A stretch of DNA of 22,060 nucleotides from Ectocarpus siliculosus (lineage: Eukaryota; Sar; Phaeophyceae; Ectocarpales; Ectocarpaceae), in the NCBI GenBank assembly GCA_000310025.1, contig FN648746.1, positions 8,056 to 30,115 of the forward strand, read 5' to 3'. The notes beneath the pieces are model-generated. The model searched no databases. It was not told where the DNA came from and saw only the letters and a list, made by a program, of their open reading frames with translations. The number at the start of each line of letters is the position of its first letter. Position 1 is the first letter of the stretch. This document shows, one piece after another, positions 1 to 20,090 of this stretch. Both the position numbers and the translations under genes were made by a program.

Positions 1-1392
1 TTTAGACTGACGTTTGGATGGGCAGGTTCGCCCGGTTTTTGGGGAGTCATGGCGTCCGCTGCTGAACACTCACACCGCAACACCAACGTACACAACGTAC
101 AACTAGTAGACGAAGGGATCGAAATGATGTCACATGTAAAAATAGTCGAGCCGTGGGAAGACGGACCACCCGCCCGAGTGCCCCGAGACGCCAATGTGAA
201 ACCGCATGACGGAGGCGGACCCCACGACGATTTCTCGTGCGGGGTGTACGTAGACGATTTCGCTTTACTGAAAGTACAACATGCGCCGGACGACGCTTCA
301 GCGCTGGTAGCCTCCGCGTCATTAGCGTCTGACTGTGTGAGACTCTTCGGGCCAGCAGAGGCGGGCCAAACGCCCATTCTCGCCCCGAAGAAAAGCACAG
401 ACTGGAACACGAAAGTGGACTTTCTTGGACACACGATAGACACCCATAAAATGACGATCGCAACAACACATGAGAGGATCGATGCGATAAGGACCGCGCT
501 AGAGAACGATTGGCCACAGACCAGAGAATTCGCTAGTGTGCAAGAAGTCCTGAGTATGGCTGGAAAACTCTGGAACATGACATATGTCATGAGGGCGGGG
601 AAGTATTTCGTGTGGCACCTCTTACGCCTTACTGGCCTACACGACAAGGCTAACAGACGGTCGAGAGAGAAGAGGCAGGTACGTCTCGGTTGGGAGTTCC
701 ATGGAGACCTAGACTTCTGGAGATGGGCGCTGAAAGTTAAACTGGCGGAGAAAGGAGAGTCACTTAGCGCGTTTTTCTTTAACCACGTCCAACGCACGCC
801 TTTCCGTCACTACCTGTCTGATGCTAGCTTCGACGCAGTCGGCGGACACTGTCCCGAACTAAAGGTATTCTGGCGGTATCGATTTAAACCCGCGTTTACC
901 GCGGAGCTGAAAAGGAAAGCGGAAGCCAAAGAAACCAGCGCGATCACGATCAACACGCTAGAACTGCTCGGAATGATAATTACATGTTGGGTGGTCCAAA
1001 TGGTCGTGGGAGAAAAGCCGACGCAACACGGACAAGCTATCATGATGAGGGGAGACAATATGTCGGCGGTGTCGTGGGTGAACAGATGTGGGGGCTCGAG
1101 AGACAGGCGAGCGGGACTGCTCATGAGACTGCTTGGTCGCATGGAGATTGAAAACGGATGGTGTCATGTGGCAAAACACATCCCGGGACGCGAGAATACC
1201 CTCGCGGACGGGATATCTAGATGGAAGTCAGAGGACGTAGAAGTCAATGTGGAAAAACTCACGCATGATAATAACTGGCGAATGCAAGACATCGGAGACA
1301 CCGGAAGAGAGCTGATTGAAATGATACTGCAAGAGAAACTCCAGAACCAAAGAATGGATGGCCTCGTATGGAGCCGCATGGCAAGCGTGTAA
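1..1392 (+). CDS. Reverse transcriptase / RNase H (partial, 5' end outside window)
   Basis: The frame is open from base 1, and the first methionine at 49 is internal. Bases 13-48 encode FGWAGSPGFWGV, the conserved RT block before the catalytic site. The motif YVDD (247-258) carries two catalytic aspartates of the palm. The DFLGH motif and a helical thumb/connection region follow. RNase H is intact: Asp at 820 (in LSDAS), Glu at 961 (TLELLG), Asp at 1054 (RGDNMSAV) and Asp at 1207, inside the HIPGREN-LADGISRW ending typical of DIRS-type RNase H. Its role is to make element cDNA from RNA and degrade the RNA strand. The tail after RNase H is only about 50 residues, so there is no room for the methyltransferase found in DIRS1. 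The stop overlaps the next ORF by 25 bases. The N-terminal RT motifs, including the first catalytic Asp, lie off the left edge. Confidence 0.92.
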   Translation, partial: FRLTFGWAGSPGFWGVMASAAEHSHRNTNVHNVQLVDEGIEMMSHVKIVEPWEDGPPARVPRDANVKPHDGGGPHDDFSCGVYVDDFALLKVQHAPDDASALVASASLASDCVRLFGPAEAGQTPILAPKKSTDWNTKVDFLGHTIDTHKMTIATTHERIDAIRTALENDWPQTREFASVQEVLSMAGKLWNMTYVMRAGKYFVWHLLRLTGLHDKANRRSREKRQVRLGWEFHGDLDFWRWALKVKLAEKGESLSAFFFNHVQRTPFRHYLSDASFDAVGGHCPELKVFWRYRFKPAFTAELKRKAEAKETSAITINTLELLGMIITCWVVQMVVGEKPTQHGQAIMMRGDNMSAVSWVNRCGGSRDRRAGLLMRLLGRMEIENGWCHVAKHIPGRENTLADGISRWKSEDVEVNVEKLTHDNNWRMQDIGDTGRELIEMILQEKLQNQRMDGLVWSRMASV

Positions 1393-2555
1393 AGAAAAGA
1401 AGTAATAAGAGTAAGACGAGAATGATGAGCAAAAGAACTAAAGAAGGTGTAATGACCCTAACGTGTTCAAGTACAGGAAGCGAACACGGGACGAAGGGAA
1501 CGAGCGATGAAGGCGAAAGGCTCCTCAGGATAATGGAGCACGGCTCCCTGAACGCGAGCACGCTGAAAGGATACCACAGCAAGTGGGACACGTGGACAGA
1601 TGAAAGAGCTAAAGCGAATCTGAGTCCATGGTTGTACGAGGAGGACGGCGTGGATAGCGCAGTGAGAGAGCTGACTGTGTTTATGGCATCGAGGTGCTTA
1701 GTGTATAAGAACCAGAGCCAAACGGTGAAGGGGTACCTCGCGGCTATCAAGTACTTCCATAAACTGTACGCAGGCTGGGAGCTGCCCACGTCGCACTTCA
1801 GAGTGGCAGCTGTTGGGAACGCAATAGACAGACTGCATGCGAGGGCAGAGACGAAACAGTTGGTAAGGCAACCGCTCACCGTGCCGATGATTATAGCAGG
1901 GAGAGAAAGAGCGCTGACGGATGTTTTCAGACTAGTGACGTGGATGGGGATCGCTCTCTCGTATTTCTTGCTGTGCCGAGCGTCTGAGCTGTGGGCCTAC
2001 CACAACGGATTAGTACACGCCGATTTTTGTCTTACGAGGGGGAACCTCGTATTCTTCGAAGGATCGTGTCGGCTAGCGTGGGACGAAAGAAGGCGGGCAG
2101 ACAGAGTAGAAGTGACTTTTCGGGCATCAAAAGCGGACCAAAAGAGGCGAGGCGCGGTAGTGACGAGAGAGAGAGTAACGCGGGACGAGGAAGTGGGACA
2201 GATGGCTGAGAAGATGGGGGCGCTCGAGATTTTGCTGAATCTGCTTGACGTGCACCCAGAGTTAGGAAGTACCGCGCCGCTCATGCAGTCGGTCAAGCAG
2301 GGACGGTGGGCAGTAGTGTCGAGGTCGGAAGCAACAACAGCGTTGAGAGACATGGCGAGAAGAGTAGGAGAAAACCCAACGCACTTCGCGCTACACTCAG
2401 GGAGGATAGGTGGTGCGACGCAACTAGCAAAGCAGGGCGCATCGGTTATTCAGATTCAGAGGGCGGGAAGGTGGAAGTCAGGAGCCTTTATGACGTACGT
2501 TAGGGCAGGAGGGGAAGGCGCTAATTATGTATCGCGCGCACTAGCGTCTAGTTGA
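1368..2555 (+). CDS. Tyrosine recombinase (integrase of DIRS-type element)
   Basis: A 395-residue protein that integrates circular element DNA by site-specific recombination through a tyrosine nucleophile. Residues about 55-170 form the helical core-binding domain. The catalytic domain follows: first Arg at R204 in LLCRASELW (codon 1977), H343-S-G-R346 (codons 2394 and 2403), W369 in GRWKS at the usual His/Trp position, and nucleophile Y377 in FMTYVR (codon 2496). A basic stretch near residues 251-261 may supply the catalytic Lys. All expected residues are present, so it may be active. The first ATG (1368) lies 25 bases inside the RT ORF in another frame; a second ATG pair sits 18-19 codons on. 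Expression could be by reinitiation, frameshifting or splicing, and the sequence does not decide. Cryptons also carry this enzyme, but the adjoining RT/RNase H rules that out. Confidence 0.92.
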   Translation: MEPHGKRVKKRSNKSKTRMMSKRTKEGVMTLTCSSTGSEHGTKGTSDEGERLLRIMEHGSLNASTLKGYHSKWDTWTDERAKANLSPWLYEEDGVDSAVRELTVFMASRCLVYKNQSQTVKGYLAAIKYFHKLYAGWELPTSHFRVAAVGNAIDRLHARAETKQLVRQPLTVPMIIAGRERALTDVFRLVTWMGIALSYFLLCRASELWAYHNGLVHADFCLTRGNLVFFEGSCRLAWDERRRADRVEVTFRASKADQKRRGAVVTRERVTRDEEVGQMAEKMGALEILLNLLDVHPELGSTAPLMQSVKQGRWAVVSRSEATTALRDMARRVGENPTHFALHSGRIGGATQLAKQGASVIQIQRAGRWKSGAFMTYVRAGGEGANYVSRALASS

Positions 2556-2603
2556 AGGGGAGAAACAGCGTGGACAAGAGCGCCGAATATCGGGCCGCGC
2601 AGT

Positions 2604-2781
2604 GGGATATGACCTGGGCATAGACGTCGGGTTGGCCCGATAAGTGATACCTAGTGAGTCCGAGAGGAAGTCAATGGTTCGGTTCATAGGTTGGATTTTG
2701 GTTTTGATATTTCTTGGTTTCGGCGTTTCTGATTTCTTGTCGCTTTTTCTAATAATCCAAATTTCTTGAGCAAATCACAAA
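2604..2781 (+). repeat. Split direct repeat, copy B1 (178 bp)
   Basis: Begins GGGATATGACC and ends CAAATCACAAA. By eye it is identical over all 178 bases to the copy at 3151-3328, and the flanks diverge at once on both sides. It starts 48 bp after the recombinase stop codon. In split-repeat YR retrotransposons the internal B copy is thought to template restoration of the termini during replication; that role is inferred here. Confidence 0.93.
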
Positions 2782-3150
2782 ACGAAGGATTCGGTATAAC
2801 CGTGAATCCGTGGTTTGTGGAAGCGTACCGGAAATTTCGTGAAAGAGCGGCGAGAGACAAAAAAGGGTATACGGGGGTATAGCTATGTACAGGGTACAGA
2901 GAAGAGAGAGAGGTTGGCAGAAGCTTTTGGGATCCTTGGGAAGCCGAGGACCTCGAAGGGAAAAACGTTGCATCGCCCGCAAAGGCAGTGCAGCAAAGCA
3001 GCAGCGAGAGAAAAGAGTTTTCGTTTGGGACTTGATCGAATTTTCCCACCCACCCACCCTGTCGCTCAAGAGAGGAGGGATCAATGGGAAGAGAAAAATC
3101 TGTCTAGTGCCAAATTTGTTCTCCAATTTGCGTTGACTTTTGTGTGTATG
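2782..3150 (+). repeat. Putative A2 segment between the two B repeats (369 bp)
   Basis: The 369 bases between the identical repeats have no convincing coding capacity; the short ORFs on both strands lack domains. By analogy with PAT/Ngaro elements this should be A2, a copy of the element's left end A1. The left end is outside the window, so the match cannot be tested here. Confidence 0.6.
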
Positions 3151-3328
3151 GGGATATGACCTGGGCATAGACGTCGGGTTGGCCCGATAAGTGATACCTA
3201 GTGAGTCCGAGAGGAAGTCAATGGTTCGGTTCATAGGTTGGATTTTGGTTTTGATATTTCTTGGTTTCGGCGTTTCTGATTTCTTGTCGCTTTTTCTAAT
3301 AATCCAAATTTCTTGAGCAAATCACAAA
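3151..3328 (+). repeat. Split direct repeat, copy B2 (178 bp, right end of element)
   Basis: Second identical copy of 2604-2781. The flanking sequence on the right (TTCCACGTGGGAAATT) is unrelated to what follows the first copy, so 3328 is the best estimate of the element's right terminus. Confidence 0.9.
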
Positions 3329-4806
3329 TTCCACGTGGGAAATTAACCCGTCGTGCGCATTATCCTTGGTGAGCCTGCGTCCGTTCGTCCCTTGCTAATC
3401 TGGCCCGCAGCACGGCTCGTCCTACCCTCTTCGCCGCCACCCCTCACGGTTGACAACCATTCCTCAATTCTCCGAGGCACTCTCCCAATTTTTTGTGGCT
3501 CTTCTCTCCTCCGCTCCTTCTTCGTTAGGGTGCGCAAACATATCTACTGCTGTAGTTGGGCTAAGTGCTGAATACGAGTCCATCCTCCCCAGTTGCTGTT
3601 CTCGCGTCGTCAACCGTACACGTTCTTACACCGGAATCCACACCGCGGCAGTGAGAATAGATGTCTCGAACATACTAGTGCATTTGCGTCGAAATGGCAG
3701 TCGTCTATCCTTGCCTGTGTTTGTATCGCACTGGGTGTACTGCTGTAGCACCGCGTAGGCGCCTTTGCTAGATATGCAGATTTTCCGGAAAGAGATGGTT
3801 CAAAACAGCAGCTTCAACATGGCCGCCGCATAAATCTTAATCTTAGCGTGGATAGTCTGTTTTCCTTCATGTTCAATGCGCCCGGGGTGAACCTCGGGCG
3901 TTGAGTCGGTGGTGTACAGTAGTAGACTAGTACTTTTCTATCTGCTTGGATCTAATTCTCTGCTTTGTGCTCGCTGCTCCAACTTCACCCGTGAAAAAGT
4001 GCACGGACGAGTTTCAGCGCAACGAGTTTGATTCCCGACTACAGACACCAAAGACGGTTGGTGGAGTGGTTTCGCTCCACTTCAAAAAGCTGGTGGCATC
4101 GCTCGGGCGACCGACAGGCTTGCAAGATCGCCAAGTATCTCTAGAACGGTGGGTGCGTTCTGTAGGTCTGACTGCCCAGGTCATATCACCCGTTTGTGTT
4201 CTTCTTCATTTCGATTCTGTCTCGCCACAACATGCGGTAAACTGTACCACTACTCGACAGTACAACACACAAAGGATTATCCTGTGTGTCTGTTCGTTCC
4301 ATCTATCCCTGGCGCTTTTCTTTGTACACTATTTGGCACAGGTTTGGTGCGCACCAGCCGGGGCTCTCACAGGAGAAAGAGAAACACAACCGTAAAACCT
4401 CTCCTCCCTCAGCGGTTCTTGCCTAATTTAGTTTTTCATCGCAAGAAAAGTCCCCCAGCAGTCCGTCCCGTTCGCTCTGTTGTGTGTGCTCCGAACGGCT
4501 ACAAGTATTTTCGTACTCCCCCGAATTCGCTAGTTTCCACCCCAGAGAGACTCGAACCACAACCCAGAGTCAGAAAAACGTTTTGCGAAATTGCAACCTC
4601 AAGCAGGAGCCACCGGCCCTAGACAAACTATCTGCCATTTCTCACAGGACGTTGGGTACTTCGGCCTGTTAGTCCCTCCATTTCTTGACAGGTATGGATG
4701 GGTGGTGCAGTTGTTCTATCGTCTGCATAGGTTGCGGACTCAACTCTTTCGTGCTTTGATGGCGCGTCGGGCTATTTTTCCAACCCTCTCTGTGCATTTG
4801 AAATAA
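3329..4806. other. No recognisable gene; short ORFs only
   Basis: Several + strand ORFs of 60-157 codons lie here (3946-4395 and 4149-4622 are the longest). They overlap in different frames, are rich in Ser/Arg/Pro/Cys and show no domain, signal peptide or convincing splice structure. I read them as chance ORFs. No tRNA, tandem repeat or transposon end was seen. Confidence 0.5.
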
Positions 4807-10242: not shown

Positions 10243-13127
10243 CTGTGGTTGGATTTTGTGTTTGTGAGGTCCGTGGAAGGACCGAGGGACGGTTAGATGG
10301 GAGGCAGCCCTCGGGTCAGGGCGAACCGTTCGCATGCCTACGCATGGCGTATGGTGTGTGTGGTGGGCGTATGTGGGCGCGCGCGTGGGCGCGAGGCAGT
10401 GTTTTGCGTGTGATCGCGCCGGCCACGTCCACGAGAGGGAGGAAAGTTTCCGAGAGGTTACATGTATTCTGTATGGGGAATGGGCGAGTTCGGTATGAGG
10501 ACTGTCCAAGAACAACACCCGTTGTGTTTCGTTTGTTGCCTAAACATGCGGCATCGGCACGACCACACCCAGCCCGAATCCAAAGCTACAACGCCGTGCC
10601 AAAACTCGCAGTGCAGTGTAGGAGTCAGCCGTGGTATCTTGCAACGATTGACGAAATACAAAAGCGTGCATGGGCAGGACGAGAGAGCACAAAGAAACAA
10701 GAACACTAGCATTTGTAGTTGGCAGCGGCAGCAGCACAACGTGCCTGGAGCGATCCCGTGCGCGTATTCGGTGGTGGCTGCCCACATTGCGGCGAAGGTC
10801 AGGCCGTGCAGCACCTCGGCCGGGAGGACCCACCACGGCTTTCGTAGCACCTGAGCCAGTTCGAGGGTCGAGTTCGTCCCGAAGAGGACAGCACAGGGGC
10901 AACGAGACACTTCAATTCCATGCAACTCAGAACAGAGGTAGAGACTAACAGCCTTCCGCCATGGCAGGAATAGCCGGCAGAGTCGGTCTCATGTCCCCCA
11001 ATGGACCGGGCGGCCAGAATGTGATTCAAGTGAAGGCATGTATGCGATGGGCGCGTTCGGCACTACTTTAGCACGGGTTCAGATAGGTAAGAGTGGTTCA
11101 GTGCGCTGCTATGGTCGTCACCGCCCTCGTTGGACGGAAAGACATTGCTGTGCAATCCTGTGAACGCGGAAAAAGAGATAGGGTGAGGGGATCCTGGTTC
11201 CCGAGGTAGGAGGAAGCAGACGAGACAAACGGAGAGACAAAGAAGGATATGTCGCTGCAGTTGGCCGACGAAATTTGTAAAGCGTCGAGTACGAGCCAAG
11301 GCTCGATATTCTTTCTTTGCCTCCGTCGCCCAGGATGGCCCATGGCGAACGACCTGGTGTCCAATCCACCATTGACCTGCTGTGTCCCTAGGGCAAGAAG
11401 AAACAAAATGATTTTCCTTTTGTCTTCAGTGCTTGGGCAACCTGTACACCTTTGAACCACTGAAAGAGTCTTCCTGTGCGGTGGTGGCCGTACGAGGGAA
11501 AAAAATGTTTCAGGACACCCGATTTTCTGCCTCACAGCGACCTCGCGAACGCCGGCTGAACTCACTTCGCAACAACACCAGGCACCCTACCCCTCTACCT
11601 CTACAAACGTGGCCACTGCTCTGAAGGAGCGAAAGCTAAACAATTGGAGGGAAGGGGAAGGGAGGGCCCCCCACCACTGCCTGCGGAGGCGACAAACTTC
11701 CATCCAGGCGGATAGCGAGTGCGCCAGCTCTCTCGAGCCTACGGTAAGCGGGGGAAGACAAAAGACAAGGCTCACCGAATAGTAGATGAAGCGAGTCAGG
11801 TAGGCCACCTGGGTGAGGGCGATCACTCCCCGTACGCCGACCCGCCTGATGAGAGGCCCCGAGAGGTAGAAGAACGGCACTTCCGCGATGCACATGATGA
11901 GACGCGCGAGCCCGCACAGCACGTGCGAACCCCCGAGCTCTTCCAGCCTTGGTTGGGAGATGGGGTTGGGGGGTTGTGTGGGAGTTGAAGCACAAGAGTA
12001 CAAGGAGGGCAGCAGCGTAGGGGTTATAGCAGGGTCAGGGTTAACATCCGTGTGGGAGTTGAAGCACAGAGTAGAAGGAGGGTGGCAGCGTATGGGCTAT
12101 AGCAGGGTCAAGGTTTACATCAAAGGTCAACTCCAGTCCAGAATGCAGTCATATTTAGGGGCCTCGAGTGTCTACCGGTGGAGGGATAAGGGCGGCGCAA
12201 TGTGCGGCATGGAGGAAAATGGGCAAGCCGAGGTTCATGCAGGCTTCGCCTTAAACACCAACGCGAACACAGAGCATGCGTACAGGAGGGCTGCTCTTGC
12301 GCGTGTGGTTCGCCACCTCAGAACGGCCGGCATGATGAGTGTTTAGCTTCGGTTTCAGTTTCGCCTCTCATACAAAAAACCAGAATAAACTCTGTTCATG
12401 CATCGACGTCGGCGACGCTTTGTCACTGAATCGGCGAGAGCACAACATGGTCGACTAAAAACAAACCACCCAAGCATCAGAGCATCACCACGCAAAACCA
12501 TGCTATTTGTACTGCAGTGCTATTGAGACTCCGACCAACCAACCACCAACAAGAGGATTTTTCAGTCAACAACCGCACGATCCCCACGAACAAGAGCAAA
12601 CGATTGCTCCAAAACGTCGGTAATTTCTCCGCCATCACCTAATGAAGAGAAACGTGTCGATCACGCCCGCTCCCATGCCGCTGAGCCCCACTGCCATGAA
12701 AAAGGAAGCGCTCTCTCCCGTGTACATCATGATCCGGACGGCCATGAGCACACCCTCCTGCTCTTTCGCCTTCGCCCCGGGTCCCTCACCATCACCTCTG
12801 CTGGGGCCGCTGCTGCCGTTGTTGTCGCCGCCCCCGTCCTTGTCCGAGGTCGTCCTAGGGCGGGACAGCAAGGCGGCGTGCGTTTGGGCTTCGTCGTTGC
12901 CTTCGGGCTCGTCGTCGTCGCGGAGATGGAGCTTAATATCATCAGCGGTGGCGGCGGTATCGGTGGCCACTGCTGGGGTCACGGCGGCAGTTCCGATGAG
13001 ACCGCCGCACTCCGGTTCTCCCTCCGTCTTGTCACGAGCAACAGCGCAGCCTCGGGATGAGGTCCGAGGAGACACGGGACTCTCCGTGCTCTTTTCGCCG
13101 AGCTCGAAGTCTCCTCCCGTAGCGACG

Positions 13128-17962: not shown

Positions 17963-18239
17963 ATAGAGCACCTCCACGAGAGACTTTTTTCTGCTGCGAA
18001 AAAGCTAGGCACAGGGAATGCCACTGCATCAATTTCGGCCAATAGACCGGATCTTGCCAATTCGTTGGTTTGATGCAGAGCAGTGAGCGCACCCCACACA
18101 AGCACGCGTAAAGCTTGCCGCCTGCACCAGCCGGCGCGCTGGGAGTGGGCTGAATAGTCTTGCTGGCCCTACTAGCCTTTGTCACACAAAGCTCCAAGCC
18201 ATAAACGGTATTCTGAAGGAGTAACGAGCGTGGAATGTA
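17963..18239 (-). repeat. Long inverted repeat, left arm (277 bp)
   Basis: Reverse complement of 19813-20090 with six substitutions and one 1-bp indel (about 97.5% identity). Outer end ATAGAGCACC, inner end GGAATGTA; similarity stops abruptly at both ends. It carries an open frame on the minus strand (GLELCVTKASRASKTIQPTP and onward) shared with the other arm. The differences include both silent and replacement changes, so it need not be coding. Confidence 0.92.
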
Positions 18240-19812: not shown

Positions 19813-20090
19813 TACATTCCACGCTCGTTACTCCTTCAGAATACCGTTTTATGGCTTGGAGCTTTGTGTGACAAAGGCTAGTAGGGCCAGCAAGACTATT
19901 CAGCCCACTCCCAGCGCGCCGGCTGGTGCAGGCGGCAAGCTTTACGCGTGCTTGTGTGGGGTGCGCTCTCTGCTCTGCATCAAACCAACGAGTTGGCAAG
20001 ATCCGGTCTATTGGCCGAAATTGCTGCAGTGGCATCCGCTGTGCCTAGCTTTTTCGCAGCAGAAAAAAGTCTCTCGTGGGGGTGCTCTAT
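19813..20090 (+). repeat. Long inverted repeat, right arm (278 bp)
   Basis: Inverted copy of 17963-18239. The open frame seen in the left arm is present on the + strand and ends with a TGA at the outer edge; a 1-bp indel shifts its upstream part. The outer flanks of the two arms show no obvious target-site duplication. Confidence 0.92.

Follow-up and report, generated by a model that had tools for sequence, protein, structure and literature searches.

The right-hand part of a tyrosine-recombinase retrotransposon occupies positions 1–3328 of the window, the whole 22,060-nt stretch of DNA that was analysed, and the element is probably Ngaro-like. Reverse transcriptase (RT), RNase H and a tyrosine recombinase (YR) are combined in one element, which confirms a YR retrotransposon, belonging to the order DIRS in the wide sense. 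Two identical direct repeats separated by a spacer follow the recombinase gene and give the element a complete right end. Ngaro-like elements are a rare kind that has already been described, and the element reported here is a further member.

Reverse transcriptase and RNase H

The RT/RNase H open reading frame (ORF; positions 1–1392, plus strand, 463 amino acids) is open at the left edge of the window and comprises the RT from motif B onward together with a complete RNase H, motif A of the RT lying outside the window. The RT motifs FGWAGSPGFW (13–42) and YVDD (247–258) and the RNase H motifs SDAS (817–828), LELL (958–969), RGDN (1048–1059), HIPGREN (1177–1197) and LAD (1201–1209) align with their counterparts in other retroelement proteins.

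Relatives were collected with a degenerate pattern around the end of the RNase H, which returned 23 loci from GTDB contigs; a stricter RNase H pattern returned none from the same contigs. Twenty of the 23 have an ORF that aligns as RT/RNase H, and these are probably eukaryote-type retroelements that contaminate MAGs; L021 and L022, two loci from a separate search, were judged to be chance matches. Among the BLAST matches listed for the window RT, the best is the RT/RNase H of locus L025 (E = 1.5e-9, residues 91–412), followed by the best DIRS1-like locus (E = 1.3e-8) and L028 (E = 9e-7); among the matches listed, L025 is also the best for the window YR. The L025 protein itself is assigned to Pfam RVT_1 (E = 3.5e-13). 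A profile built from the window RT, L025 and L028 recovers solved RT and RNase H chains with a best E-value of 2.9e-5, a result that tests the group rather than the window protein alone, as the two relatives are included.

Searches with the window sequence by itself returned little. Pfam gave neither an RT nor an RNase H match for the ORF at 1–1392, phmmer of the RT pieces against the PDB gave no matches, and tblastn of the RT protein against phages and plasmids gave none. Peptide searches of the viral_contigs set with the YR, the RT and the RT alignment A1 confirmed no close relative, and AlphaFold models predicted from single sequences had mean pLDDT values of 39.1 and 33.9, too low to be of use.

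Tyrosine recombinase

The YR ORF (positions 1368–2555, plus strand, 395 amino acids from the ATG) overlaps the RT ORF by 25 nt on the same strand. Its residues R (in CRASE, 1974–1988), K (in ASKADQ, 2124–2141), H and R (in LHSGR, 2391–2405), W (in GRWKS, 2466–2480) and Y (in TYVR, 2493–2504) line up with the equivalent positions in other tyrosine recombinases, and we take these R, K, H, R, W and Y positions to be catalytic in the window protein. The quartet R-H-R-Y is described as catalytic in tyrosine recombinases (PMC3212892). The original prediction that the catalytic residues are kept thus holds within the window for RT, RNase H and YR alike.

Identification of the YR draws on several profile searches. 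Sixteen YRs from IMG/VR contigs (20 loci, minus L005, which runs off the locus end, and L006, L013 and L020, with no YR ORF at the match) were combined in a profile that finds the window YR with an E-value of 3.6e-14, whereas the best E-value among 200 shuffles is 0.2; the match falls on the C-terminal, catalytic half. PHROGs assigns the protein to an integrase family (E = 8.2e-4), and the Pfam Phage_integrase match (E = 0.0087, 16.3 bits) is below the cut-off of 27.1 bits. BLAST aligns the window YR with that of L025 over residues 119–379 (E = 8e-11), and a profile of these two proteins reaches Cre with a best E-value of 2.9e-5, which, with the relative in the profile, again speaks for the group rather than for the window protein alone. 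PADLOC and NCBIfam found nothing.

Direct repeats and the right end

The repeat search identified two copies of a 178-nt direct repeat on the plus strand, B1 (2604–2781) and B2 (3151–3328), which are identical at 178 of 178 positions and are separated by the 369-nt segment A2 (2782–3150). Exact direct repeats reached no more than 15 nt in 200 sequences generated from a first-order Markov model of positions 1–3500 of the window. B1 begins 48 nt past the YR stop codon, so the internal repeats lie downstream of the YR, and the B1–A2–B2 layout proposed in the original prediction is present. A2 is identified by its position between B1 and B2, with a copy predicted at the unseen left end of the element, and we infer that the end of B2 is the right end. 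No third copy of B occurs within the window, and the identity of the single pair fits a recent insertion.

Just inside A2 lies an imperfect dyad (2787–2809, plus strand). As a recombinase-binding site it is a weak candidate: an equal or better fold was obtained for 9 of 200 shuffles. The RNA fold of B is less stable than that of shuffles (z = +1.66). A 21-nt piece of B and a 26-nt piece of A2 had no exact match in viral_contigs, and blastn of 2560–3328 against phages gave no match; Rfam at the gathering threshold and a tRNA scan each returned zero hits. An inverted match of the start of B near 4166–4187 was rejected as chance level (blastn E = 0.15). A near-palindrome, TTCCACGTGGGAA, is found at 3329–3341, directly after the end of B2, at the putative insertion point.

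Search for a methyltransferase-like domain

A methyltransferase-like domain is described as present in DIRS and PAT elements and absent in Ngaro and VIPER elements (PMC4157794, PMC3266345). The tail that follows the RNase H is short in the window element (55 amino acids), as it is in L025 (34) and L028 (31). In five DIRS1-like loci (L031, L032, L037, L043 and L044), 171–198 amino acids follow the RNase H motif; from its place, we presume this tail to be the putative methyltransferase domain. A profile of the DIRS1-like tail recovers held-out members with E-values of 1.1e-50 to 6.5e-44, and yields no match in the coding strand of positions 1–3500 of the window. An antisense stretch at 961–1227 matches the full tail profile at E = 0.056, and the three held-out runs gave it E-values of 7.2, 0.38 and 0.0037; since this stretch lies within the RNase H gene and on the strand opposite to it, the match was put down to chance.

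Phylogenetic placement

The RT/RNase H tree contains the window and 20 of the 23 loci (21 rows; L026, L030 and L035, with short ORFs or another protein, were omitted). Eight of the rows, namely the window, L025, L028 and the five DIRS1-like loci, are separated from the 13 others with support of 99/100; not every one of these 13 non-YR rows was individually classified. The window RT is apart from the Gypsy-like rows, on the side of the YR retrotransposons, which, together with the two ORFs, bears out the original prediction of a retrotransposon with RT/RNase H and YR at 1–3328. Inside the YR group, the window is placed weakly beside the DIRS1-like rows (60/53), and alternative placements with L025 and L028 (p-AU 0.35) or outside both sets (p-AU 0.45) are not rejected.

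The YR tree of 22 rows places the window with L025 and L028 (support 96/98), and a topology that unites it with the DIRS YRs is not rejected (p-AU 0.20). Its rows include the YRs of three of the five DIRS1-like loci (L037, L043 and L044), the motif having missed the other two, and the four loci dropped from the YR profile were left out of the tree as well. The rows of both trees are loci classified in the present analysis, with no named Ngaro or PAT reference among them, and the status of L025 and L028 as elements with no methyltransferase-like domain comes from the tail test above. The window RT and YR are 25–27% identical to the relatives retrieved, and the end branch of the window is very long, the longest in both trees.

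Classification and comparison with known elements

Because the methyltransferase-like domain was not found and the YR groups with L025 and L028, the element is not assigned to DIRS or PAT proper, and Ngaro-like is the better label. The original prediction had named the element DIRS-type, which stands for the order DIRS in the wide sense and is not supported as a narrow assignment to DIRS or PAT. Published Ngaro elements are described with the layout A1-[ORFs]-B1A2B2 (PMC8547959), and the internal repeats of Ngaro and VIPER elements are placed downstream of the YR (PMC4157794). In the Ngaro-like elements described from Cafeteria burkhardae (PMC8547959) and Ectocarpus (PMC12477816), as here, an RT/RNase H ORF precedes a YR ORF, no methyltransferase-like domain is indicated, and B1–A2–B2 follows the YR; the window shows the right part only, and the comparison is with the published descriptions of those elements. 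The 25-nt overlap of the RT and YR ORFs departs from the lack of overlap that is described as usual in Ngaro elements, a tendency rather than a rule (PMC3266345); the open frames of L025 overlap too.

L025 and L028, whose contigs are recorded as those of a tubeworm (Escarpia laminata) endosymbiont, share with the window element the RT/RNase H, the overlapping YR frame and the short tail. Their RT differs in having approximately 46 fewer residues between motifs B and C, no split repeats were seen in their contigs, and the YR of L028 is cut by the contig end. Overlapping direct repeats are present upstream of the first long ORF at L025:1–351 and L028:3708–4138, unlike the right-end layout of the window. 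The five DIRS1-like loci likewise carry RT/RNase H and YR, but their YR is quite different. Three of them (L031, L032 and L037) are on contigs under one Breoghania MAG (MO_035.B22); these DIRS1-like retrotransposon genes presumably entered the record of a bacterial genome as contamination from a eukaryote.

The main alternative within the order is a PAT-like element of the DIRS group that has lost its methyltransferase-like domain, which would leave the mechanism unchanged. PAT-like elements (PAT, TOC and Kangaroo) are described with split direct repeats (PMC4157794), of which the window would show the right half, loss of the domain is reported for a PAT lineage of C. briggsae (PMC4157794), and PAT-like elements are also reported in Ectocarpus (PMC12477816); the weak position of the window RT beside the DIRS1-like rows points the same way. 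We consider this origin unlikely, however, as PAT-like elements carry the domain that the window element lacks, and the YR groups with the elements in which it is likewise absent. Kangaroo differs further in its inverted YR, whereas RT and YR are on the same strand in the window. A DIRS1-like element, which the order of the genes and the same RT placement would allow, is the least credible of the readings considered: such elements are described with inverted terminal repeats (PMC3266345), whereas the right end in the window carries direct repeats and no methyltransferase-like domain is found, and the YR motif of three of the loci lies in an ORF of approximately 1,000 amino acids with an extensive pol overlap, compared with 25 nt here. 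The element could also represent a deeply separate lineage of YR retrotransposons, one that could deserve a superfamily beside Ngaro, PAT, DIRS and VIPER, since its RT is securely grouped with neither the loci lacking a methyltransferase nor the DIRS1-like loci and is approximately 46 residues longer than that of L025 between motifs B and C; we regard this, too, as improbable.

A VIPER-like element would have an equal repeat pattern and would also lack a methyltransferase-like domain, and the split-repeat and domain layout described for VIPER is alike (PMC6681497), but VIPER is reported from kinetoplastids (PMC4157794, PMC6681497). In the window, an MFS_1_like gene seems to be divided, apparently by introns, among several ORFs of the minus strand, whereas introns are almost absent from kinetoplastid genes; a VIPER-like origin is very improbable. 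The B1–A2–B2 block taken by itself resembles two short direct repeats flanking a spacer, and could in principle be an independent insertion of a miniature LTR element that landed by chance behind a YR retroelement. As a rule, LTRs begin with TG and end with CA, but the repeats here have neither the TG start nor the CA end, no duplication is visible by eye in the bases adjoining 2604 and 3328, and the block begins at the short distance from the YR stop that the Ngaro layout expects, which together make a chance insertion highly unlikely. A Ngaro-like element is thus the preferred reading.

Proposed mechanism

The complete element would have the layout A1, gag and the start of the RT outside the window, followed by RT/RNase H, YR, B1, A2 and B2. 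The formation of a circle and its insertion by the recombinase, with no target-site duplication, is the accepted model for YR retrotransposons. Following the published model for such elements, the element RNA would be copied by the RT, and the split repeats would serve as annealing regions through which a complete DNA circle is produced, with the end of B joined to the start of A. The B1/A2 boundary at 2781/2782 would then be a stored copy of the circle junction. The recombinase would cross the circle into a short, similar host site with no target-site duplication, and insertion by the recombinase is most likely the route for this element. Circle insertion with no target-site duplication is stated for DIRS1-like elements (PMC3266345).

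Other features of the window

The GC content of the window ranges from 48 to 61% in 1-kb steps. On the minus strand, from approximately 16172 to 9914, four ORFs match successive parts of the Pfam MFS_1_like profile in profile order, three above the Pfam cut-off and one below; they probably belong to a single transporter gene interrupted by long introns, which would make the host eukaryotic; a brown alga would be a fitting, though conjectural, host. At 11976–12121, a 73-nt unit occurs twice in tandem (89% matches). An inverted repeat at 17963–18239 and 19813–20090, with arms of approximately 278 nt that are 97.5% alike and 1.57 kb apart, may be a non-autonomous DNA transposon; the ends of its arms show no target-site duplication.

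Implications

The analysis corrects the label of the element from DIRS to Ngaro-like and supplies a complete right end, in which the two B repeats match perfectly. It is useful for annotation because Pfam gives no RT or RNase H match and the recombinase match is below threshold. DIRS- and Ngaro-like elements have been noted in the Ectocarpus genome (PMC3145265), an element named NgaroDIRS6 is reported as induced in the infected alga (PMC3174193), and a survey of Ectocarpus gives 15 Ngaro families with 3893 copies, 689 of them intact, and five PAT-like families (PMC12477816). Should the host be a brown alga, the element would belong to a group that is already catalogued in Ectocarpus, and its value would be mainly curatorial.
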